Positions 3,175 to 22,393 of a stretch of 28,947 nt of DNA are shown here, one piece after another. The notes beneath the pieces are model-generated. The model saw nothing but the letters and a program-made list of their open reading frames with translations. It did no database searches and was not told the DNA's origin. Origin of the DNA: a virus; the IMG/VR virus record IMGVR_UViG_3300017746_000095, positions 1-28,947 of that record. One strand, given 5' to 3'. Position numbers and translations under genes: made by a program. Position 1 is the first letter of the stretch; every line of letters starts with the position of its first letter.

Positions 3175-4240
3175 AAAAGATAATATAACAAAATTTTATA
3201 AAAATGAAAAAGGTTCACTAATGGGATGCCCTCAATGTTTATCCCCTAATCTAGTAAAATTCGGTGTTCAATCTTTTATAGGAAGAGAAGATAAGCAGAA
3301 GTATAAATGTAAAGAATGTTCAGTAGTTACACATAATTTAGTAGAACTAAAAGATGGAAATTCTTTTGAAGTTCCTGACTTGAAACCCGAACCTGAAATG
3401 TCTGTTGATGATATTATCAAATACAGAGTAAAAAAGTTTAAGATTAAAAATAACGTGCAGGAATATTATAATTTAACTCATGTTAATATAAAAATAGATG
3501 GTGTTATAGGTATATGTCATTTTGGTGACCCTCATGTTGATGATGATGGTACGGACTTAGGTGAATTGTTCGGGATATGTGATGTAATTAAAAACACAGA
3601 AGGAATGTTTGCTGGAAATCTTGGAGACATACAAAACAACTGGGTTGGTAGACTAGCTGCTCTTTATAGTCAACAAAGTACAACTGCAAAAGAATCTTGG
3701 AAACTAACAGAATATTTTTTAAATAAACTTCCTTGGTTATATTTAGTAGGAGGAAATCATGATGTATGGTCAGGAGATGGTGATCCTATAGAGTTTATTA
3801 TGAGAGGTAATACTAGAACAACCTATGCAAACCATGGAGTAAGACTTAATTTAAACTTTCCAAATAAATCATCTATAAGAGTTAATGCTAGACATACTTT
3901 TAAGGGGAACTCAATGTGGAACTCCGCTCATGGTGTTAGTAAAGCTATTCAAATGGGATGGAGAGATCATATAGTGACAGCTGGTCATACTCATGTAAGT
4001 GGTTATCAAGTTTTAAAAGACCCCGCATCGGGGTTAATTTCTCATGCGTTACAGGTTGCATCATTTAAAAGAATGGATGAGTATGCGAATAGGCTAGGTT
4101 TAGACGATAAGAATATTTTTAATTGTCCGGTTACGATCATAGACCCAAAATACGCAGATGATGATAATAGAAAAATAACTACAATTTTCAACCCATATGA
4201 AGCAGCAGAGTATTTAAAATGGAAAAGGTCACAGAAATAA
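3167..4240 (+). CDS. zinc-ribbon metallophosphoesterase (calcineurin-like)
   Basis: 357 aa from the ATG at 3167, chosen because AAGGA lies 8 bases upstream; a longer frame from 3086 would overlap the endolysin by 89 bases. A zinc ribbon comes first (C21, C24, C48, C51). The calcineurin-like two-metal phosphoesterase core follows: G-D-P-H (D121, H123), G-D-I (D154), G-N-H-D (196-199), a His at 243 and G-H-T-H (273-276). All metal-binding motifs look intact. The substrate is unknown; such enzymes include nucleases and protein or nucleotide phosphatases. The zinc ribbon hints at nucleic acid binding. It lies between lysis and connector genes, suggesting late expression. Confidence 0.85.
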   Translation: MIEKDNITKFYKNEKGSLMGCPQCLSPNLVKFGVQSFIGREDKQKYKCKECSVVTHNLVELKDGNSFEVPDLKPEPEMSVDDIIKYRVKKFKIKNNVQEYYNLTHVNIKIDGVIGICHFGDPHVDDDGTDLGELFGICDVIKNTEGMFAGNLGDIQNNWVGRLAALYSQQSTTAKESWKLTEYFLNKLPWLYLVGGNHDVWSGDGDPIEFIMRGNTRTTYANHGVRLNLNFPNKSSIRVNARHTFKGNSMWNSAHGVSKAIQMGWRDHIVTAGHTHVSGYQVLKDPASGLISHALQVASFKRMDEYANRLGLDDKNIFNCPVTIIDPKYADDDNRKITTIFNPYEAAEYLKWKRSQK

Positions 4241-9913: not shown

Positions 9914-12126
9914 TGGCTTTAACGTTACCAGATAGTTTTAAAAATAATTCTATAAAGCAAAATTGGCTTTTTCAATTATATTACGACAATGAAAGCGCTT
10001 TTACAGGCTTATCTTTTTACGATGCGGAAATAAGTAGCAATCAATATTATGGTGCGGTGTTAAATAAACCAAGCATAAGAGAATCAATTGATATTGAAAA
10101 AAGCATTTCTTCAACTGGAAATATTTCCTTGTCTGTTGCTAATTTTAACTTTCTAGGCTCAAATTTTAGTTCAGCCTTATATGGTGTTAATAAATACATA
10201 AACCGAGCTTTTAAGGTATATATACAGCCTAACGACGCAACTACAATAGGTGATTGCCTTTTAATATATAGCGGAAAACTTGTTTCAGCTTCTCACAATG
10301 TAGATTCTATAAGATTACAGATAGAAGCAAAAAGACCTTGGGACAATATAGAAGTTCCTACTGTAAAAACAGATAAGAACAATTATTATCCGATAGCATA
10401 TGGAGATTATAGACCTAATGCGAGCCAAAGTAATGTAAATTCTACAGGATTAACTTTTAATTCAAACGCAGGTATTGATGAATATAGAAAAAGAAAAACG
10501 CTATATCCTATACCGATAGAAGAAAGAAGAGGAACAACAATTTTTTCATTAACAGGGGATTGGTCTCAATCAACAAAAGCTTGGCCTCATTATTATGAAA
10601 AATCTACCGACACATTTTTACCTATTGCAAATCACGAAAGTACTGCAACGACTATGGATTCTGCAAATGAAACTTACCTAGACGGGAAAGCAGTAAGATT
10701 TCATCAAAACTTATTGAAATCATCTTTTTATAAAATGGTAGAACTTACTGAAATAGAAAATAATACCCCTTTTAATTGGGTAAATAATAATAATGCTTTT
10801 GATGGAGACTATATTAATACAAGTACCTATACACAATGCACTATCAATGGTGGTTTCATTAACAATAGAAGAGGCTATGTAAAGTATTCTTTCCCCCAAT
10901 TAACTGGTTTTCCAAATAAATTACAAGTCAATATGGTTATTTCCGGAACAGTCAGCATAAGTGACGTGGGCGGTAATGGCGAGATAAGAGTTCAATTAAT
11001 TAATAAAAGCTTTGGAGCCGAAGATATTTTAGGGTATTATAAATTAACGAATGCTCAGACCTCAACAAGTGATTTAATAACAGGAAGCGGTGCTGTAGAC
11101 ACCTCTTCAGCTTATTTTTTAACAGATGCGTTTGATAGTGACACCGAATGGTTAGCTTCTGGGAGCGGTTGGGGTGAAGGTTTACAATTTAACCTTAAAT
11201 GCATTTTACAAAGCGGTGATCTTGATGGGGATTTAGAAGGAAATTTTAGAATTTTTGACGTTGCAGTTCAAGCTGATAACCAATTAGACTTTACGGAGAC
11301 AACTAAAACAGGAAAACTCGTAGCTTCGAAAGTCTTAGATGATATTGAATATGTTTATTCAGGTGGTGATGGGTTGCCAGACAATGGCTGGAATAGTAGT
11401 GCTGCAATAACAACTATAATTGCTGCGCATAGGGATTTACTTCACAGAAATACAAGTTACACTAATTCAAATACACCTGATAATTGGAGTGCGGTTAATA
11501 GTGCTAAAGATTGGGCGGTAAGATATTGGATAAACGAACCTGTTGAATTGCTGAAGGTTCTAGAAAAACTGCAATATGAAGGCGGTTTTATTTTTAGATT
11601 TAATGGACAAGGTGCGGGAGAGTATATTTTTATACCAGATAGCATAAGCACAGACCATACATTGAGTACGGATGACTTAAACAATATTGAAATATCTTTA
11701 TTGCCGATGGATAGAATAGTTTCTAGGATGGATATAGAATATGAGAAACATCCGATATCGAATTATGTTTCAAAGGTTATAGCTTCTAATAGTAGTACGA
11801 TAAGTGATTTATTAATAGGTACAAATGAAAACAAAAAGACTATTAGGTTAGATGCTAATGTTTCAGCGCCTGCAAGTTCACCTTCAAGCAGCCCTAATGA
11901 TGATTTCTATACTTATTATGATAATATATTAGGCGATCAAAAAATAATCGTTAGTGCTGATGTAGTTTCCCCAAATTTTTATGGTATTGATGTTGGGGAC
12001 TTTGTAGCTTTTGATACAATGCCAGTTAATCCTTTTAGTAATAGTGATTGGAGTGGTAAAGATTTTATAGTGACAAGCGTATCAAGGCAAGTCGGTAAAT
12101 TAAAATGCGAATTTAGAGAGGTTTAA
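9913..12126 (+). CDS. distal tail/tip (baseplate) protein
   Basis: 737 aa, TAATG overlap with the tape measure gene. It is mostly beta, with an N-terminal part (about 1-160) containing 'SISSTGNISLSVANF', 'LIYSGKLVSA' and 'RPWDN' elements like phage tail-tip proteins that bind the tube end. An insertion rich in N, S, T and G (about 190-460) could carry a carbohydrate-binding or jelly-roll domain. The C-terminal part (about 530-737) contains L-L-K-V-L-E-K-L-Q-Y-E-G-G-F-I-F-R and G-D-F-V-A-F-D-T-M-P, resembling hub domains. Exact domain borders are uncertain. Confidence 0.65.
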   Translation: MALTLPDSFKNNSIKQNWLFQLYYDNESAFTGLSFYDAEISSNQYYGAVLNKPSIRESIDIEKSISSTGNISLSVANFNFLGSNFSSALYGVNKYINRAFKVYIQPNDATTIGDCLLIYSGKLVSASHNVDSIRLQIEAKRPWDNIEVPTVKTDKNNYYPIAYGDYRPNASQSNVNSTGLTFNSNAGIDEYRKRKTLYPIPIEERRGTTIFSLTGDWSQSTKAWPHYYEKSTDTFLPIANHESTATTMDSANETYLDGKAVRFHQNLLKSSFYKMVELTEIENNTPFNWVNNNNAFDGDYINTSTYTQCTINGGFINNRRGYVKYSFPQLTGFPNKLQVNMVISGTVSISDVGGNGEIRVQLINKSFGAEDILGYYKLTNAQTSTSDLITGSGAVDTSSAYFLTDAFDSDTEWLASGSGWGEGLQFNLKCILQSGDLDGDLEGNFRIFDVAVQADNQLDFTETTKTGKLVASKVLDDIEYVYSGGDGLPDNGWNSSAAITTIIAAHRDLLHRNTSYTNSNTPDNWSAVNSAKDWAVRYWINEPVELLKVLEKLQYEGGFIFRFNGQGAGEYIFIPDSISTDHTLSTDDLNNIEISLLPMDRIVSRMDIEYEKHPISNYVSKVIASNSSTISDLLIGTNENKKTIRLDANVSAPASSPSSSPNDDFYTYYDNILGDQKIIVSADVVSPNFYGIDVGDFVAFDTMPVNPFSNSDWSGKDFIVTSVSRQVGKLKCEFREV

Positions 12127-12900
12127 ATGGCTAAGACTTTTTATTATGATTCAGTAGGTTTATTAGAATCAACAATTAACGATGGTACTTATGCAAATCC
12201 GTCTGGTGGAGTATACACATTTTCAGATGCTGCTACTATCACGAATGAAGAAAGAGCTGTTGATCAATCTATTTCTACTGCTATGACATCATTTGCAGTC
12301 AACGATGCTCTTCAATTTAATTTGGGTAGTGCAAAGGCTGTTGATTTTATAGGTGTTAATTTTACAGCAGCAGATACTGATAATTTAGAACTTTGGTATG
12401 ATACTTCAGCTAGTGGAGCATTAGAAGCCAAATCGGTAGCTATGACAGCAAGTTTTCCAGTTGGCTGGACATTTAGCGAATTTACATCAGCAGCCAAACA
12501 GTATTGGACTTTAGTTGCAATAAATGGAACTATTACTGGTTTATCCGAAGTTGTTATTGGAAGTAAACTAGCCTTTGAAGTTAATCCTGATTTGGGGACT
12601 GGTGAAGTTAATGAATTTGGAACTACTATAAATACAAGTATTGGTGGAATAGAATATGCTATAAAAAATCACGAAACAAAAAAGAATATCAGTTTATCTT
12701 TTTCAAGTATAAGTGAGACTTTTAAAGAATCCTTACAAAGCATGGAAGAAAGTGTTCAAAATTATAAAAAATTCATTTATTCTGAAAATGGTACAACTGG
12801 GCCATTCCATTATGTGAGGCTAGGTAAACCAATAAACTTTAAGGAAGTTTCTTCAACGAGATATTCAGCCAATATATCTTTAAATAAACAACTTTCTTAG
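12127..12900 (+). CDS. minor tail protein
   Basis: 257 aa, ATG directly after the previous stop with GAGAGG upstream. The first 150 residues look like a beta-sandwich with S/T/A-rich strands (e.g. N-F-T-A-A-D-T-D-N-L-E-L-W-Y-D). The rest mixes helix (about 195-225, E-T-F-K-E-S-L-Q-S-M-E-E-S) and strand. It is the last gene of the structural block, so a tail tip or receptor-contacting role is likely. No named family is recognised. Transcription of the late operon probably ends downstream, although no T-tract terminator immediately follows. Confidence 0.55.
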   Translation: MAKTFYYDSVGLLESTINDGTYANPSGGVYTFSDAATITNEERAVDQSISTAMTSFAVNDALQFNLGSAKAVDFIGVNFTAADTDNLELWYDTSASGALEAKSVAMTASFPVGWTFSEFTSAAKQYWTLVAINGTITGLSEVVIGSKLAFEVNPDLGTGEVNEFGTTINTSIGGIEYAIKNHETKKNISLSFSSISETFKESLQSMEESVQNYKKFIYSENGTTGPFHYVRLGKPINFKEVSSTRYSANISLNKQLS

Positions 12901-12939
12901 TTTTTTCTTAATAAATATTTAGTATATTTCTCCCCTGCA

Positions 12940-13007
12940 GGCAGAGGCGAATGAGCGATTCACTCCGATGTTCGTTCTAGTATTCACAATATAAAAACGC
13001 CTCTGCC
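12940..13007. repeat. GC-rich perfect 10-bp inverted repeat in the 12.9-13.1 kb non-coding region
   Basis: GGCAGAGGCG (12940-12949) and CGCCTCTGCC (12998-13007) are perfect inverted copies with 48 bases between. Eight of ten pairs are G-C in an otherwise AT-rich genome. A smaller inverted pair, GAAT/ATTC, lies within the left part of the loop. No T-tract follows the right arm, so it is not a normal intrinsic terminator, and no tRNA T-arm can be drawn. It could be a structured RNA, a recombination or origin element, or an operon boundary. Confidence 0.7.
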
Positions 13008-13014
13008 GCTCCTA

Positions 13015-13032
13015 TCTTATACAGTTAATTAA
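13015..13032 (-). repeat. 18-base element upstream of the early promoter, inverted copy of 19507-19524
   Basis: On the - strand this reads TTAATTAACTGTATAAGA; the element at 19507-19524 reads TTAAATAACTGTATAAAA, matching at 16 of 18 positions. Both lie just upstream of the two promoters that share a layout, but in opposite orientation. A regulator-binding site is possible; AT-richness raises the chance of coincidence. Confidence 0.4.
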
Positions 13033-13051
13033 CCCCTAATATTTTTTGAAC

Positions 13052-13073
13052 AAAGTGTTTTACTTTACACTTT
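13052..13073. promoter_or_regulatory. 7-bp dyad overlapping the -35 box (operator or weak terminator)
   Basis: AAAGTGT (13052-13058) and ACACTTT (13067-13073) are perfect inverted halves around TTTACTTT, and the right half runs into TTTTTTG. The dyad surrounds the predicted -35 of the early promoter, so a repressor or activator could bind it. Read as RNA from upstream it is also a short hairpin plus U-tract, possibly a weak end for the tail operon. The second promoter lacks the dyad. Confidence 0.35.
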
Positions 13074-13101
13074 TTTGTATTAATATACCTATGTGAATAC
13101 T
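13059..13101 (+). promoter_or_regulatory. early promoter A (TTTACT - 16 - TAATAT) with GTGAATACT start box
   Basis: TTTACT at 13059-13064, a 16-base spacer, TAATAT at 13081-13086, six bases, then GTGAATACT at 13093-13101. The promoter at 19540-19582 has the same boxes at identical spacing, including the same nine bases at the expected transcription start. It stands in the largest gene gap, just before the early gene block. The boxes suggest host sigma70-type recognition. The GTG at 13093 is in frame with the next gene but is better explained as part of this box. Confidence 0.7.
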
Positions 13102-13125
13102 GATTATAAAACAAGGAGAAATCAA

Positions 13126-13320
13126 ATGTTAAATCATATAATAATACAAGCGTTACAAGATTCTGATAACTACAATAACGATGGAACTATTAACTGGAAC
13201 TTTGTAGAATCAGATTTATGGAACCATAGTGTTGCTAGTCTATATAGTAAAGAAGAGAAAGTTAATGCAATTGAAAATTTTCCAGAATCTCTTATACCGT
13301 CAGTTAAAAGAGGCAAGTAA
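13126..13320 (+). CDS. small acidic hypothetical protein, first early gene
   Basis: 64 aa from the ATG at 13126, preceded by AAGGAG about 8 bases upstream. An in-frame GTG at 13093 would add 11 residues but falls on the predicted transcription start. The chain is short, rich in N, D and S, with a likely helix at each end (N-H-I-I-I-Q-A-L-Q-D and K-E-E-K-V-N-A-I-E-N). No family is recognised. First genes after an early promoter are often host-takeover proteins; that is speculation here. Confidence 0.65.
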   Translation: MLNHIIIQALQDSDNYNNDGTINWNFVESDLWNHSVASLYSKEEKVNAIENFPESLIPSVKRGK

Positions 13321-13487
13321 TGGATAAAGAGCAAAGAGAGTTACTTATTGGCCTTGTCAGGGCGGAAAGAAGGAGGTTAAATGTTCTTAAATATGAATAT
13401 GCTTATGATAGTGTGGAACAAGATAAAATATGGAAAGAAATAAGTATATGTAATCGAACTTTAGGATTCTTGGAAGGAGGTAAGTAG
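13320..13487 (+). CDS. small hypothetical helical protein (55 aa)
   Basis: The frame begins at a TAATG overlap (13318-13322) and runs 55 codons to TAG at 13485-13487. It is a charged helical hairpin by appearance (R-A-E-R-R-R-L-N-V-L-K-Y-E-Y-A-Y, then E-Q-D-K-I-W-K-E-I). Tight overlap on both sides supports expression. A GGAGG site near its 3' end serves the next gene. No family is recognised. Confidence 0.55.
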   Translation: MDKEQRELLIGLVRAERRRLNVLKYEYAYDSVEQDKIWKEISICNRTLGFLEGGK

Positions 13488-13798
13488 TGACTAAACCACC
13501 TTATGATTTTAAGTTTCATGCTGAAATCAGATATGAGACTGAAGACTGTTTTAATTTTACAAATGCAAATGGTAACACTATTCCTGAGTTTCAAAAAGAT
13601 GTTTTAGAGGTCTGTAATAAGTATTCAAAAAGAAGCCCTAAGATAGTAACAATATTAGCTAGGTCTATGTATGACCCTAATCAGATAACTGAAAGAATAT
13701 ATCAGTTTGCTAACACTACTTTCTTTACAGAAAATGAGAGTGTGAAGAACGCTTTAAAACATATAACCAAGGAGGGTAAAAATGCCAGTACCATTTAA
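13487..13798 (+). CDS. hypothetical protein
   Basis: 103 aa, GTG start sharing a base with the upstream TAG and preceded by GGAAGGAGG about 9 bases before, a strong site that supports this start. Mixed alpha/beta, with F-Q-K-D-V-L-E-V-C-N-K-Y and a Y-D-P-N-Q-I-T-E-R-I helix. No membrane segment and no motif that I recognise. It overlaps the next gene by 17 bases. Confidence 0.55.
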   Translation: MTKPPYDFKFHAEIRYETEDCFNFTNANGNTIPEFQKDVLEVCNKYSKRSPKIVTILARSMYDPNQITERIYQFANTTFFTENESVKNALKHITKEGKNASTI

Positions 13799-14189
13799 TC
13801 AAAAATTGTCCCAACATACTGAAAAACAATACTTAGAATTAGAGACTAATTATTTAAACCTTTATAATTTTGTTCAGAGTCTTTTGACTATAACAGAAAA
13901 CAAAGATATTGATTCAGATTCTCAGAGGTTAAGTCATTTTAATGCTTTAACTATTAGAGTAACTGAAGGCGTAAAAAGATTTGAGAAATTCACAAAAGAC
14001 CTTCGGAGTAATGTATTCACAAGGAACTCCGCATCTTCCAACTCCGAAGGCAAACCCTACGAGGTTAGAATATTAGCCACGAAAAAAGAAAAGAAACTAA
14101 TTATAGAAGCTTTAGAACATATGTCTAATAGTTATCCCGATTTAAAAGTTTCTGACAAGTTTCAACAACTAGCAAACGAAATAAAATAG
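13782..14189 (+). CDS. hypothetical helical protein
   Basis: 135 aa, with GGAGGG just upstream of the ATG. The first 80 residues look like two long helices (E-K-Q-Y-L-E-L-E-T-N-Y-L-N-L-Y, then V-T-E-G-V-K-R-F-E-K-F). A Ser/Asn-rich linker (about 83-93) leads to a small C-terminal domain (V-R-I-L-A-T-K-K-E-K-K-L-I-I-E-A-L) that resembles the helix-pair ends of phage DNA-binding proteins. I cannot assign a family. Confidence 0.5.
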   Translation: MPVPFNQKLSQHTEKQYLELETNYLNLYNFVQSLLTITENKDIDSDSQRLSHFNALTIRVTEGVKRFEKFTKDLRSNVFTRNSASSNSEGKPYEVRILATKKEKKLIIEALEHMSNSYPDLKVSDKFQQLANEIK

Positions 14190-14423: not shown

Positions 14424-14569
14424 TGATAGTATTAAACATAGCTGAATGGATTGCGAACCTACTAATTTTAGGTTTAGCTGGTCTGATATGGTTTGTTGTC
14501 ATATTTGGATTTATGATGTTGATTTCAGTAGCAGTAAGAGGAATTAAGGAGGTAACTAGTGGTGAATAA
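14423..14569 (+). CDS. tiny membrane protein (48 aa)
   Basis: A frame from the TAATG overlap at 14421-14425 to TAA at 14567-14569. One long hydrophobic helix, about residues 10-38 (A-N-L-L-I-L-G-L-A-G-L-I-W-F-V-V), is followed by a short basic and acidic tail. Its end carries AAGGAGG for the next gene. A single-span protein between HTH and SSB genes is unusual; it could affect the host membrane or exclude other phages. Function is unknown. Confidence 0.55.
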   Translation: MIVLNIAEWIANLLILGLAGLIWFVVIFGFMMLISVAVRGIKEVTSGE

Positions 14570-14675
14570 ATATCAAAAGAAAATAGAATCATTCTTCAGT
14601 TTTATGGAAACTATGTTTTTTATTTTAGTTGGAGTTTCAATGTTAAATTTATTTTTTCAATTAATAACAAGATAA
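14562..14675 (+). CDS. tiny membrane protein (37 aa)
   Basis: GTG at 14562, 8 bases inside the upstream gene, with AAGGAGG about 9 bases before it, the strongest site in this stretch. 37 codons to TAA at 14673-14675. A basic start (N-K-Y-Q-K-K) leads to one hydrophobic helix (about residues 11-34). Together with the upstream gene it forms a pair of overlapping single-span proteins. No family is recognised. Confidence 0.5.
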   Translation: MNKYQKKIESFFSFMETMFFILVGVSMLNLFFQLITR

Positions 14676-14684
14676 GGAGTAGTA

Positions 14685-19110: not shown

Positions 19111-19510
19111 TAAAATAGATATATATACATACTCTATGGAATTAGCGAAGATAGCAGCTCTAAGAAGCGAGGATCCTTATGTAAAAGTAGGTTGTTGTGT
19201 ATTAAGAAAAGATAAAAGTGTTGCTGGGTTAGGATATAATGGTGCTCCAAGTGGTATTGAAATTGATTGGACTAACAGAGATAACAGACGTAAGAGAGTT
19301 TTACACGCAGAGGTTAACGCGTTAAGATATGTAAAACCTAACGAATGCCAATTAATAGCATGTACTTTGTTACCGTGTAGATCTTGTATACAAATGATAG
19401 CAGCTTATAATATAAAAATAGTATTATATAAAGATGTCTATAAAAAAGATGAAGCTGCTATTACTCTTTGTAAAGAATGGGATATAGAATTAATTAATAT
19501 AAAGGGTTAA
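19094..19510 (+). CDS. dCMP deaminase
   Basis: 138 aa, starting 17 bases before the upstream stop. Converts dCMP to dUMP with a zinc-bound water. Zinc ligands and catalytic Glu are in H-A-E-V-N-A-L (71-77) and P-C-R-S-C (94-98). The N-terminal D-P-Y-V-K-V-G-C-C-V and G-Y-N-G-A-P-S-G fit the ComEB/T4 Cd family. Length is normal for the short form. If the upstream enzyme uses dCMP, the two would compete for one substrate, as in T4. The stop is followed by promoter B. Confidence 0.9.
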   Translation: MKKQINKIDIYTYSMELAKIAALRSEDPYVKVGCCVLRKDKSVAGLGYNGAPSGIEIDWTNRDNRRKRVLHAEVNALRYVKPNECQLIACTLLPCRSCIQMIAAYNIKIVLYKDVYKKDEAAITLCKEWDIELINIKG

Positions 19511-19524
19511 ATAACTGTATAAAA
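19507..19524 (+). repeat. 18-base element, inverted copy of 13015-13032
   Basis: Reads TTAAATAACTGTATAAAA, matching the - strand of 13015-13032 at 16 of 18 bases, and lies 15 bases upstream of promoter B's -35 box while overlapping the stop of the dCMP deaminase gene. A shared regulator site is possible. Confidence 0.4.
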
Positions 19525-19539
19525 AAATAAATAAACTGT

Positions 19540-19582
19540 TTTACTTCTGCTCGTTTGGACCTATATTCATTACGTGAATACT
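19540..19582 (+). promoter_or_regulatory. promoter B (TTTACT - 16 - TATATT) with GTGAATACT start box
   Basis: TTTACT at 19540-19545, a 16-base spacer, TATATT at 19562-19567, six bases, then GTGAATACT at 19574-19582. Same boxes and spacings as promoter A, with TGTTTTACTT and GTGAATACT identical and 27 bases apart in both. It lies in the only gap of the metabolic block and drives the amidoligase trio. The spacer sequences differ, so the shared parts are likely functional. Confidence 0.7.
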
Positions 19583-19612
19583 AACAATAACAAACAAAAC
19601 ACGGAGTTAAAC

Positions 19613-20587
19613 ATGAAAGGAACATTTAATGTAGATAAAGCTTTTGGCATAGAATTAGAATTATTAGCACCTACAAGGTTGAGCAGGAGAGATATTGTAG
19701 AAGCTTTAAATGAAGCTGATATAACAACAAGAATAGAAGGTTATAACCACGAAACAAGACCATATTGGAAATTAACTAGTGATGCTAGTGTAAATAGTAG
19801 AGAATCAGGTTATAAAGGAGATCTTGAATTAGTTTCTCCAAAATTATATGGTTTTGATGGAAAAATACAATTAGAAAAAGTTTTACAAGTACTTAACAAT
19901 TTGGATTGTAAAGTTAATGTTACTTGTGGAACTCATGTTCATCACGATGTGAGTGACGATGTAACTAAAGATGTAACAAGCGACGAGAATACAGCTTATG
20001 ACTTCTTAAATAGGTTAACTAGAACAGTCATGAAATACGAGCATTTAATTTACAAGTGTATATCTCCTTCAAGGTTAAATAGTATAAATGGTTCATATTG
20101 GACTAAACCAACAAGATTCGTATTGAATGGACATACCTCAAATGTTTATAAAGAAAGTTTAAATAAACGCGTTACAGAGGAATTAAAAAGCGATGTTCGT
20201 TATAGAAGAGTTGATGTACAAAGCACTAGATATTCTGGTTTAAATCTAGTTAATATGTGGACAAGAGGTTCTGTAGAATTTCGTTATCATCAAGGTACTT
20301 TAAACTTTGATAAATTATGGGCATGGATTGTTTTTACTCAAGCTATTGTTAATTCTGCAAGAGAATCAAAAAGAGTAAATTATGGAGCAGTTAAGAATTG
20401 TAAAGATGGTTTTTTTCACTTCAGAAGACATTTAGGATTTATCGGAACTACTTGTACAGAAACTAAATTTTCAAACAAAATGATGATGAATAGATTTAAA
20501 ACTTTTAGCACTCCAGAAATGGAAGAAAAAAGAAGCTATTCTTCATACTACCAGCACGTTCAAAATCAAATACAAAATAGGAGTTAA
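19613..20587 (+). CDS. amidoligase (COOH-NH2 ligase, Amidoligase_2-like)
   Basis: 324 aa from the ATG at 19613, with GGAG 7 bases upstream; the in-frame GTG at 19574 belongs to the promoter box. Motifs follow the glutamine-synthetase-fold amidoligase family (PF12224): F-G-I-E-L-E-L (11-17), D-A-S-V (57-60), G-D-L-E-L-V-S-P (69-76), C-G-T-H-V-H-H-D (105-112), V-E-F-R-Y-H-Q-G-T-L (221-230). Such enzymes are predicted to join a carboxylate to an amine using ATP, through Glu-bound metal. With the next two genes it forms the trio described for this family (amidoligase, glutamine amidotransferase, GGCT-like). Substrate is unknown. Confidence 0.85.
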   Translation: MKGTFNVDKAFGIELELLAPTRLSRRDIVEALNEADITTRIEGYNHETRPYWKLTSDASVNSRESGYKGDLELVSPKLYGFDGKIQLEKVLQVLNNLDCKVNVTCGTHVHHDVSDDVTKDVTSDENTAYDFLNRLTRTVMKYEHLIYKCISPSRLNSINGSYWTKPTRFVLNGHTSNVYKESLNKRVTEELKSDVRYRRVDVQSTRYSGLNLVNMWTRGSVEFRYHQGTLNFDKLWAWIVFTQAIVNSARESKRVNYGAVKNCKDGFFHFRRHLGFIGTTCTETKFSNKMMMNRFKTFSTPEMEEKRSYSSYYQHVQNQIQNRS

Positions 20588-20588
20588 T

Positions 20589-21506
20589 ATGTGTGGATTA
20601 GCAGGAGTAATTATAAAAAAAGAGGATAGGTCTCAAAAGGACTTATCCTCAGTGGTAAGTGGTTTCAAGCGAATGCTGTTATCAGCTAACTCGAGAGGTG
20701 GACATGCGACAGGTTATGCTTTGATAGATAAATATGGAGGTCATACAATAATAAAAAGACCTTTAAATGCTCATAAGTTTTTACGCGATGAAATATCTAA
20801 AGAAGCTCTTAATATTGTTTCTGAAGACATCACTTGTATATTAGGTCATACTAGATATGCAACTTTAGGAAGTCCAAGTAAAAATAGAAATAACCACCCT
20901 ATAAGAACAGGTAATACTATTGGAACTCATAACGGTTCTATACATAACCATAAGTACTTATTTAATAAGTACAATATGGACCGTCATGCAGAAGTTGACT
21001 CAGAAGCTATTTTTAGACTATATGAAACATCTAAAAGTGCAAAAGATTTTTCTGAAAACCGACTACCAACTGTGAGAGGTCGAGTCGCAATTGTTTGGAG
21101 CGACTTAGAATATCCAGAATACGTTTATATGATTAAAGGTAATAATCCATTAGAAATGTTTTATATACCTAGTTTAAATATATACGCATATGGAAGTACC
21201 AAAAACATAATAAAGTCGTCAGGTTGGTTGAAATATGAGCAAATAGATATAAAACCTAATACTATGTTAAGGATAAATACTAAAACATTAAATATTAGAA
21301 CTAAGAAAATAACTCATAAAGAACCTCTACCTAAGAAAAATGTTTATTATGATGATAGTATTGGTGCTTATACTGATTTTAATTACAAAAAAACCGTTAA
21401 GCAGTTTGTTCCTAGGTTTTCTTTTAAAGACAACTTAAGACAGCAAGAGCAGTTGTTTGAACAAATCGCGCCTGACGGCACAAACATAAGGAAGATAAAG
21501 CTATAA
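20589..21506 (+). CDS. class II glutamine amidotransferase
   Basis: 305 aa, AGGAG upstream. The nucleophile is Cys2 after removal of Met (M-C-G-L-A-G). Further Ntn-hydrolase marks: R-G-G-H-A-T-G-Y-A (36-44), G-H-T-R-Y-A-T (86-92), N-H-P (102-104), G-T-H-N-G (112-116) and D-S-E-A (137-140). It releases ammonia from glutamine. There is no synthetase or phosphoribosyltransferase domain, so the ammonia must go to another protein, most likely the adjacent amidoligase. The C-terminal 60 residues are basic and unassigned. One-base overlap with the GGCT-like gene. Confidence 0.9.
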   Translation: MCGLAGVIIKKEDRSQKDLSSVVSGFKRMLLSANSRGGHATGYALIDKYGGHTIIKRPLNAHKFLRDEISKEALNIVSEDITCILGHTRYATLGSPSKNRNNHPIRTGNTIGTHNGSIHNHKYLFNKYNMDRHAEVDSEAIFRLYETSKSAKDFSENRLPTVRGRVAIVWSDLEYPEYVYMIKGNNPLEMFYIPSLNIYAYGSTKNIIKSSGWLKYEQIDIKPNTMLRINTKTLNIRTKKITHKEPLPKKNVYYDDSIGAYTDFNYKKTVKQFVPRFSFKDNLRQQEQLFEQIAPDGTNIRKIKL

Positions 21507-22087
21507 TGAAATTATTTGTTTATGGAACATTAAAAAAAGAAGGCGCTAACCATAGGTTTTTAAATAAATCTAAATACTTAGGAGAGCATAAAATAAGTAA
21601 TTTCGTATTGTTTGATATGGGTTTCGGTTTTCCTTACTTAAAAACTCTAACTGGAGACTTTGATGAAGACGAGTTTGTATACGGAGAAGTCTACGAAATA
21701 GATAAAAAAACATTATCTAATATAGATAGATTAGAAGGTCACCCCAACCACTATAGAAGAATATTAATTAATTATGGTAAGGAAGTTGCTGGTATGTTTA
21801 CGTATGTAACTACTTACAATTATATTCCTGAAGCAGCTTCCATATTAAGGTATGGTTATTGGCCTATAGCGAAAAAGATTAAAGTGATTATTGATGGTAG
21901 GAAATATTATGATACGGCAGACAAATTAGTATTCCACATGAGATTTTTCGATGGAGATAGAACACCAACTAATAAAAGTTATATGGACTTAGTGCAAGAA
22001 CGTAGTCTATTGAATTTAAATACTTATTATGAAGAATTATTTATAAGAGATTGTATTCATAATAACATAATAAAGGAGGTATTATAG
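21506..22087 (+). CDS. gamma-glutamylcyclotransferase/AIG2-like protein
   Basis: 193 aa, TAATG overlap. V-Y-G-T-L-K-K (5-11) with a nearby N-H (15-16) forms the substrate loop of the GGCT fold. G-E-V-Y-E-I-D (60-66) and I-D-R-L-E-G-H-P (73-80) carry the expected catalytic Glu (E77), and H-Y-R-R follows. This family removes or rearranges gamma-glutamyl groups, releasing 5-oxoproline. The C-terminal part (about 115-193) is an extension beyond the usual 110-130 aa fold. As third gene of the trio it may trim or proofread glutamyl-amide products. Confidence 0.85.
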   Translation: MKLFVYGTLKKEGANHRFLNKSKYLGEHKISNFVLFDMGFGFPYLKTLTGDFDEDEFVYGEVYEIDKKTLSNIDRLEGHPNHYRRILINYGKEVAGMFTYVTTYNYIPEAASILRYGYWPIAKKIKVIIDGRKYYDTADKLVFHMRFFDGDRTPTNKSYMDLVQERSLLNLNTYYEELFIRDCIHNNIIKEVL

Positions 22088-22124
22088 AATAAAACATCTA
22101 ATATAAAACACAACTACAATATGG

Positions 22125-22164
22125 AAAAAAGCTCTAATTAATTTTTAGGGCTTTTTTGTTTTAT
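22125..22164 (+). terminator. intrinsic terminator after the amidoligase trio
   Basis: A 13-bp stem: AAAAAAGCTCTAA (22125-22137) pairs with TTAGGGCTTTTTT (22145-22157, one G-T pair) around a 7-base loop, and the right arm runs into TTTTTTGTTTT. It lies 38 bases after the GGCT-like stop and separates the early and late units. The A-tract on the left means it could also act on the - strand, although no - strand genes are seen. Confidence 0.8.
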
Positions 22165-22186
22165 TAAAGCACTATATTTTTATAAA
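22160..22186 (+). promoter_or_regulatory. candidate late promoter
   Basis: TTTATT (22160-22165), 15 bases, TATAAA (22181-22186), directly after the terminator and before the packaging genes. The stretch is so AT-rich that other box choices are possible, and the GTGAATACT box of promoters A and B is absent, so it may be a different class. Position is the main argument. Confidence 0.3.
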
Positions 22187-22213
22187 TTATAAAGTACAAT
22201 TATAGTAGGAATT

Positions 22214-22393
22214 ATGTCTAAATCTAAAGAAGGTACAGCGCTTACTACTGAATTAGTAGGCATAAGAAACTTAAAAACAACAGGTAATTACCGCTTGGAA
22301 TTTGATGTTTTTGAGATTGATTCGCATAAGGTAGCAGAATTAATAATGAAGTTAAATAAAGCTTTTATGATGGGATTAGTGGAGATTGATTAG
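22214..22393 (+). CDS. small hypothetical protein, first gene of packaging operon
   Basis: 59 aa, TAGGA upstream of the ATG at 22214, TAG at 22391-22393, and the terminase small subunit ATG immediately after. Strand-strand-helix appearance: L-V-G-I-R-N-L, Y-R-L-E-F-D-V-F-E, then V-A-E-L-I-M-K-L-N-K-A-F. No family is recognised. Position before the terminase genes suggests late expression. Confidence 0.55.
   Translation: MSKSKEGTALTTELVGIRNLKTTGNYRLEFDVFEIDSHKVAELIMKLNKAFMMGLVEID

Follow-up and report, generated by a model that had tools for sequence, protein, structure and literature searches.

What does a virus keep between its tail genes and its early genes when the two modules read the same way? 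The window, meaning the whole 28,947-base stretch analysed here, is the IMG/VR virus record IMGVR_UViG_3300017746_000095, in which no end repeats were found and in which every gene of the chosen set lies on the plus strand. A tail module whose last gene ends at 12900 is followed by a gap and then by genes read as early, including an HNH endonuclease and what we take, from the translations read by eye, to be a dUTPase, a thymidylate synthase and a dCMP deaminase. A first-pass annotation had called this the largest gene gap, which holds only if open reading frames (ORFs) of less than 60 aa fill the longer gaps at 22088-22393, 14424-14684 and 2479-2691, a judgement made by eye. The first codon past the gap is probably ATG 13126, preceded by the ribosome-binding site AAGGAG, and not GTG 13093, so that the gap probably ends at 13125. 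A small structured RNA, a replication origin and a recombination site had all been proposed for it. The comparisons below make it likely that the gap encodes an antisense RNA that represses two early leaders (Table 1).

Table 1. Positions of the candidate antisense RNA, its predicted parts and its putative targets; positions are those of the window unless a locus is named.
Feature	Position	Strand	Basis or remark
Candidate antisense RNA element, foot to foot of stem P1, 68 nt	12940-13007	+	fold z about -4; covariation; model R1, 61.2 bits; held-out model R2, 35.9 bits, E 1.1e-7
Stem P1, 5' arm GGCAGAGGCG, partner 12998-13007	12940-12949	+	inverted repeat; covariation
Stem P1, 3' arm CGCCTCTGCC	12998-13007	+	inverted repeat; covariation
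Hairpin P2, GAGCGA 12953-12958 with TCGTTC 12972-12977	12953-12977	+	register common to relatives
b'-like loop ACTCCG, CUCC core 12963-12966, putative anti-Shine-Dalgarno	12962-12967	+	complementarity; unpaired probability
a'-like single-stranded segment AGTATTCACA (RNA, AGUAUUCACA)	12979-12988	+	complementary to early leaders
Putative early promoter 1, TTTACT-16-TAATAT	13059-13086	+	same spacing as at 19540
Candidate target site a, leader 1, TGTGAATACT	13092-13101	+	10-nt perfect complement of 12979-12988
Candidate target site b, leader 1, Shine-Dalgarno AAGGAG before ATG 13126 (64-aa ORF, 13126-13320)	13113-13118	+	
Putative early promoter 2, TTTACT-16-TATATT	19540-19567	+	repeats the promoter 1 pattern
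Candidate target site a, leader 2, GTGAATACT	19574-19582	+	9-nt complement of the segment
Candidate target site b, leader 2, CGGAGT (Shine-Dalgarno GGAG) before ATG 19613	19602-19607	+	6 bp with the loop
Pseudoknot-like leaders of sister phages	L034 1459-1570 and 7244; L037 2798-2910 and 8098; L038 6434-6545 and 11735; L048 5761-5875		

A conserved RNA fold in the gap

The perfect 10-bp GC-rich inverted repeat described earlier is exact, with its arms 48 nt apart, and the inner hairpin and AT-rich tract described with it are both present. The repeat is the closing stem, P1, of a conserved plus-strand RNA. When 12895-13095 and 12930-13020 are folded, they are more stable than their shuffles (z -3.91 and -4.15), with none of 200 shuffles as good in either case. 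The hairpin enclosed by P1, termed P2, takes in the window's own minimum-energy fold a register that overlaps the one common to relatives. Across 19 members, the P2 loop with its CUCC has a mean unpaired probability of 0.96, and the segment UAUUCAYA, between P2 and the 3' arm of P1, one of 0.83. G-U pairs in P1 fall on the plus strand, and members score 44-85 bits on that strand, against at most 16 (one search with model R1) or 20.1 (the R1 search of the second scan) on the minus strand. The earlier remark that the repeat cannot be folded as a tRNA agrees with ARAGORN, whose model found no tRNA or tmRNA gene in the window, and no Rfam family reached its gathering score in the region.

The tail protein encoded up to 12900 was matched in 27 viral contigs and, when searched as an alignment, in 33 that include those 27. 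Reading the DNA after the gene placed the element in 17 of the 33 (L004, L005, L008, L009, L010, L013, L014, L015, L017, L022, L027, L028, L029, L043, L046, L047 and L060), with a divergent 18th in L016 (R1, 18.4 bits, E 0.27). The other 15 comprise 11 with different antisense-like leaders, three with something else (L025, L026 and L061) and one that ends inside the gene (L030). In the contig of L016, reading by eye also showed another long GC-rich stem structure, GCCAGAGGCGA...TCGTCTCTGGC, after the divergent copy (L042 10750-11050). Pattern scans of viral DNA added six records. The first returned 47 stretches, eight of which were accepted by eye for the P1/P2 fold, giving two new contigs (L063 and L065). 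The second returned at least 120 stretches. Of the 79 new loci among the matches listed, five were known contigs; searching the other 74 with R1 found at least four members (L175, L219, L196 and L221). In the DNA examined for these four, nothing significantly matched the tail protein of the window, and the element is thus not tied to the tail gene. All six pattern-found records carry CTCC and TATTCAY by construction, which is not true of their leaders. Across sources, 20 of 35 score at least 44 bits with R1.

Rows removed ahead of the counts in this analysis were L004 (near-identical to the window), L015 (a copy of L014), L219 (the same element as L175), L022 and L046 (contigs that end after or within the element) and the divergent L016. 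Covariation was counted in 15 aligned members. Standard pairs fill 97.1% of the 240 cells, and four of the seven unpaired cells come from the window's P2, which stands one column out of register in the alignment used (A3). Both sides have changed in 10 of the 16 base pairs (8 of 10 in P1 and 2 of 6 in P2), and the covariation score is 0.458, compared with 0.230 in shuffles, none of which was as high in 500; structures slid along the alignment reach at most 0.154. Furthermore, when the window and L005 are withheld, a covariance model made from 13 members (R2) finds both, L005 at 42.3 bits, and the next match in the window scores 15.2 bits. Of the three earlier proposals, the small structured RNA is thereby strongly supported in its structure, and one half of what had been named as refuting it, a lack of compensatory changes among relatives, does not hold; the antisense role goes beyond what had been noticed.

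This same covariation of an RNA fold, together with the complementarity to leaders described below, speaks against a replication origin or recombination site, to which we assign almost no probability even though the region lies between modules and has an inverted repeat and an AT-rich tract. GC skew is positive throughout the window, and cumulative skew is still rising at 13 kb, with no turn there, which counts against an origin of the kind that turns the skew and leaves room for turnless ones; nothing was found in favour of a recombination site.

Searches with the window DNA, the tail protein or L175 found no relative among isolate phages. The L009 region gave three short matches to isolate phages (11-14% coverage), read as chance. 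In bacterial genomes, tail-protein patterns matched 65 stretches, none of which was confirmed, and the DNA pattern matched four, where R1 scored at most 16.8 bits, likewise read as chance. The large terminase has 1,514 record matches, all below 60% identity, a spread too broad to point to any host.

Complementarity to two early leaders

The single-stranded segment has its complement at two places downstream. GTGAATACT occurs three times in the window over both strands: in the element (minus strand), in leader 1 and in leader 2. Leader 1, about 85 nt downstream of the element, reads TGTGAATACT...AAGGAG...ATG, and leader 2 (19574-19606) bears both sites as well; sites a and b start 22 nt apart in leader 1 and 29 nt apart in leader 2. 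The loop can form only 4 bp with the leader 1 Shine-Dalgarno GGAG (13115-13118). Both leaders directly follow the pattern TTTACT-16-TAnnnT, and site a of leader 1 is probably the 5' end of the mRNA. The promoter placed in the gap by the first-pass annotation is weaker than was stated: a consensus scan listed no plus-strand promoter in 12900-13130, and what speaks for TTTACT-16-TAATAT is the recurrence of its pattern at 19540-19567. A promoter for the candidate RNA itself was not found. The first-target ORF has no Pfam or PHROG match, and the gene behind leader 2 (ATG 19613 to 20587) encodes an amidoligase (Pfam Amidoligase_2, E 1.2e-25). This second early operon (19613-22087) brings an amidoligase and a glutamine amidotransferase together in a phage, with a next protein that by eye is presumably gamma-glutamylcyclotransferase-like, and it is followed by a terminator-like hairpin at 22125-22157. 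At 51-97 of the window, TTGTGGATAATAATTAACAAACAAGGAG stands before an ORF at 97; it resembles an early leader, ranks within the top six sites by energy for the segment and is possibly a third target.

The same arrangement recurs in relatives. A perfect 7-13-nt complement of the segment lies at most 45 nt upstream of the first downstream Shine-Dalgarno sequence in all 19 scored members, a run that 0.04% to 4.0% of the other 45-nt stretches of the same sequence reach; the weakest cases are L008 and L043, equalled by 4.0% and 3.4% of those stretches. According to a pattern search of 18 records, reading and an energy scan, 13 of the 16 genomes examined have a second leader; the window is one of the 13, and another has GGAA for GGAG. 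L008 offers a weak further candidate, and none was found in L027 or the short L047 record. The genes behind the second leader differ: L043 and L029 have one that resembles an amidoligase gene, L014, L013 and L065 have one for a protein of 256-257 aa, and other genes stand there elsewhere. What the genomes have in common is the leader, not the gene behind it.

The two partners also change in step. Energies of own and swapped pairs were compared for the first leaders of 13 of the 16 genomes and for 12 second leaders, near-copies being left out and the L008 second leader being weak (GGGGA as Shine-Dalgarno). Own pairs were favoured both for the segment (P 0.00075 in first and 5e-5 in second leaders) and for the loop with the Shine-Dalgarno sequence (P 0.022 and 0.007). 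Base by base, contact position 1 is G-C, U-A or A-U, position 2 is U-A or G-C and position 8 is C-G or U-A, nearly always in step; position 9 is weak, paired in 14 of the 18 first leaders and in 8 of the 14 second leaders. With identical rows merged and L027 left aside (it pairs in another register), 23 of 10,000 shuffles for first leaders and 6 of 10,000 for second leaders reach the observed number of pairs. Both the swap and the shuffle tests leave shared ancestry in. On a tree of the tail gene, the C/T change amounts to four steps, and the leader follows in each of the four independent pairs (p 0.125). L221 joins the UAUUCAC form and a matching GTGAATA leader to a loop like that of the UAUUCAU group. 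The tail proteins of the window and L005 are 99% identical. Their elements differ, and each is matched by the leader of its own genome, a pattern that joint exchange of element and early operon would produce.

When plus-strand sites are ranked by segment energy alone, the top six include a leader in 11 of 16 genomes, and in eight a leader comes first; none of the top six is a leader in G005, G009, G013 and G014, and those of G003 include a weak second site only. Cofolding gave intermolecular pairs in 4 of 19 members, with a program that cannot represent pairing inside an enclosed loop. The contig of L005 (G002) has four such leaders, at 3581, 10647, 11296 and 11849, which are four of its six best energy sites and suggest a regulon of more than two operons. 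Taken from these comparisons, pairing between the RNA segments and the leaders is well supported.

Would such pairing need a separate RNA? The element and the first leader share a strand at short distance with no terminator-like site between them, and a read-through late transcript would carry both, so that the element could act as an insulator in cis, masking the early Shine-Dalgarno sequence and leaving early translation to messages from the early genes' own promoter. We consider this improbable, given that 13 of 16 genomes have the same co-varying complementarity in a second leader, several kb distant, and that the sites stand where leaders begin, behind putative promoters of their own.

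The surroundings of the two putative promoters contain further repeats. A 27-bp stretch upstream of promoter 1 (13017-13043) recurs inverted upstream of promoter 2 (19496-19522; 89% alike), and CCCTT-like repeats were seen by eye around the promoters of relatives; these repeats are possibly an operator. One might extend this to the segment, the leader starts and the loop, reading them all as copies of a regulator's DNA operator with an incidental RNA-like fold, and the occurrence of GTGAATACT just downstream of both promoters, like the repeated 27 bp, would fit. Such an operator is very unlikely in light of the compensatory changes in P1 and P2, which include G-U pairs on one strand, of a Shine-Dalgarno contact that co-varies separately from the leader-start contact and of a segment that is unpaired in the fold.

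At the same place, 11 sister phages have a terminator-like hairpin and then an unrelated leader structure (L006, L007, L011 and L012; L018-L021, L023, L024 and L044). The hairpin was checked by scan in one locus of each type (L048 5695-5720 and L033 10784-10811), and in the L018 type a consensus promoter lies between hairpin and leader. By eye, an inner segment of each sister leader is complementary to the leader start and Shine-Dalgarno region (GATGAGACAATT / GGATGAGA; GATGATAACC / GGAGATGATA). In three loci of the first type (L034, L037 and L038), GGAGATGATAATG stands before a distant gene and is complementary by eye to the same segment, which thus also matches a distant second ribosome-binding site. 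The canonical terminators of these sisters, and the position of the element after the last tail gene, are what would favour an element that terminates the late transcript or stabilises its 3' end and plays no antisense part. We give this reading scarcely any weight: no U-tract directly follows the stem, 12000-14000 contains no terminator-like site (GC-rich hairpin directly followed by a T run), as the remark that this is not a routine terminator had anticipated, and the loop and segment track the leaders. The element could serve as a terminator or stabiliser in addition.

Proposed function

Structure, strand, conservation and co-varying complementarity are all properties of the sequences themselves, and together they suggest how an antisense RNA would act here. 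The long GC-rich stem P1 would hold a hairpin with the anti-Shine-Dalgarno loop CUCC, followed by the single-stranded AGUAUUCACA. This segment would pair with early mRNA leaders in their upstream part, probably right at the 5' end, so that each leader would receive two contacts, one giving specificity and the other covering the ribosome-binding site. In this way the RNA would block, in trans, the translation of two or more early operons, among them those that start at 13126 and 19613. The RNA would probably be cut from the 3' end of late transcripts, because the element lies directly after the last tail gene without a terminator between, and early genes would be shut off once late transcription is under way. 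We infer separate transcription, processing, timing and repression in trans, timing and processing from position and by analogy; for late shut-off as the timing, taken by itself, we see about even chances.

A wider reading is tentative, and we would sooner doubt it than adopt it. In this lineage of uncultured phages, the RNA and its early leaders, from at least two operons, may make up a matched code of recognition whose parts co-evolve and are exchanged together, and which times the switch from early to late expression. Phages with the same code would then silence each other's early genes on co-infection, and the sister phages, doing the same job with unrelated antisense leaders, would point to a control layer that has been reinvented repeatedly. 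Should the antisense proposal itself be true, C4-type control, known from P1/P7 immunity, would extend to one RNA matched to several early operons, and such an RNA would sit where the late transcript ends. A phage's own RNA shutting off early-gene translation would be directly testable, and the paired changes in RNA and leaders would be a ready-made specificity code for predicting interference between phages. In the parts of the open-access literature on this phage group that were available, no mention of such an element was found.

Comparison with C4 and other antisense RNAs

The nearest model is C4 of phage P1, and the best reading is that the RNA would work like C4. It is not filed as a C4 member because the search with RF01695 failed in 26 records while finding phage P1, and because the tetraloop hairpin is missing. 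At E<=10 the RF01695 model matched none of the 26 records and did not list the window, and none of 11 loci reached its gathering score; phage P1, the positive control, scored 68.8 bits. The RNA here and C4 of phages P1 and P7 (RF01695) have in common a closing stem P1 that starts with GG, a hairpin loop b' aimed at the ribosome-binding site and then a single-stranded a'. In the predicted C4 fold, b' lies in the hairpin loop and a' is single-stranded 3' of b', inside the closing stem; the order is the same here. In the targets of both, site b falls on the ribosome-binding site and site a lies upstream of it. In the phage P1 record, C4 is 77 nt long and a2 and b2 start 29 nt apart before icd, compared with 22 and 29 nt here.

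According to one account, C4 consists of three stems and three loops, and RNase P releases it from a longer transcript with a cut at the 5' end of P1; the b' loop of C4 partly covers ribosome-binding sites, and a' gives specificity by binding upstream (PMC5320573). Unlike C4, the aligned members here lack the third stem with its tetraloop hairpin. Moreover, the RNA is separated from its first target by a putative promoter, nothing like an a1/b1 copy was noticed upstream, and most genomes examined have two leaders each. The target of C4 is the icd/ant antirepressor operon. Here the first-target ORF is without a Pfam or PHROG match, the second putative target is an amidoligase, and these searches point to no antirepressor.

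Lambda aQ and P22 sar are likewise phage-encoded RNAs that lower phage gene expression by pairing, and both are encoded opposite their targets, with long complementarity. For aQ, this lowering of phage gene expression by pairing is described in PMC12197685. In contrast to both, the RNA proposed here is encoded on the same strand as its targets and elsewhere, and would reach them through two short contacts.
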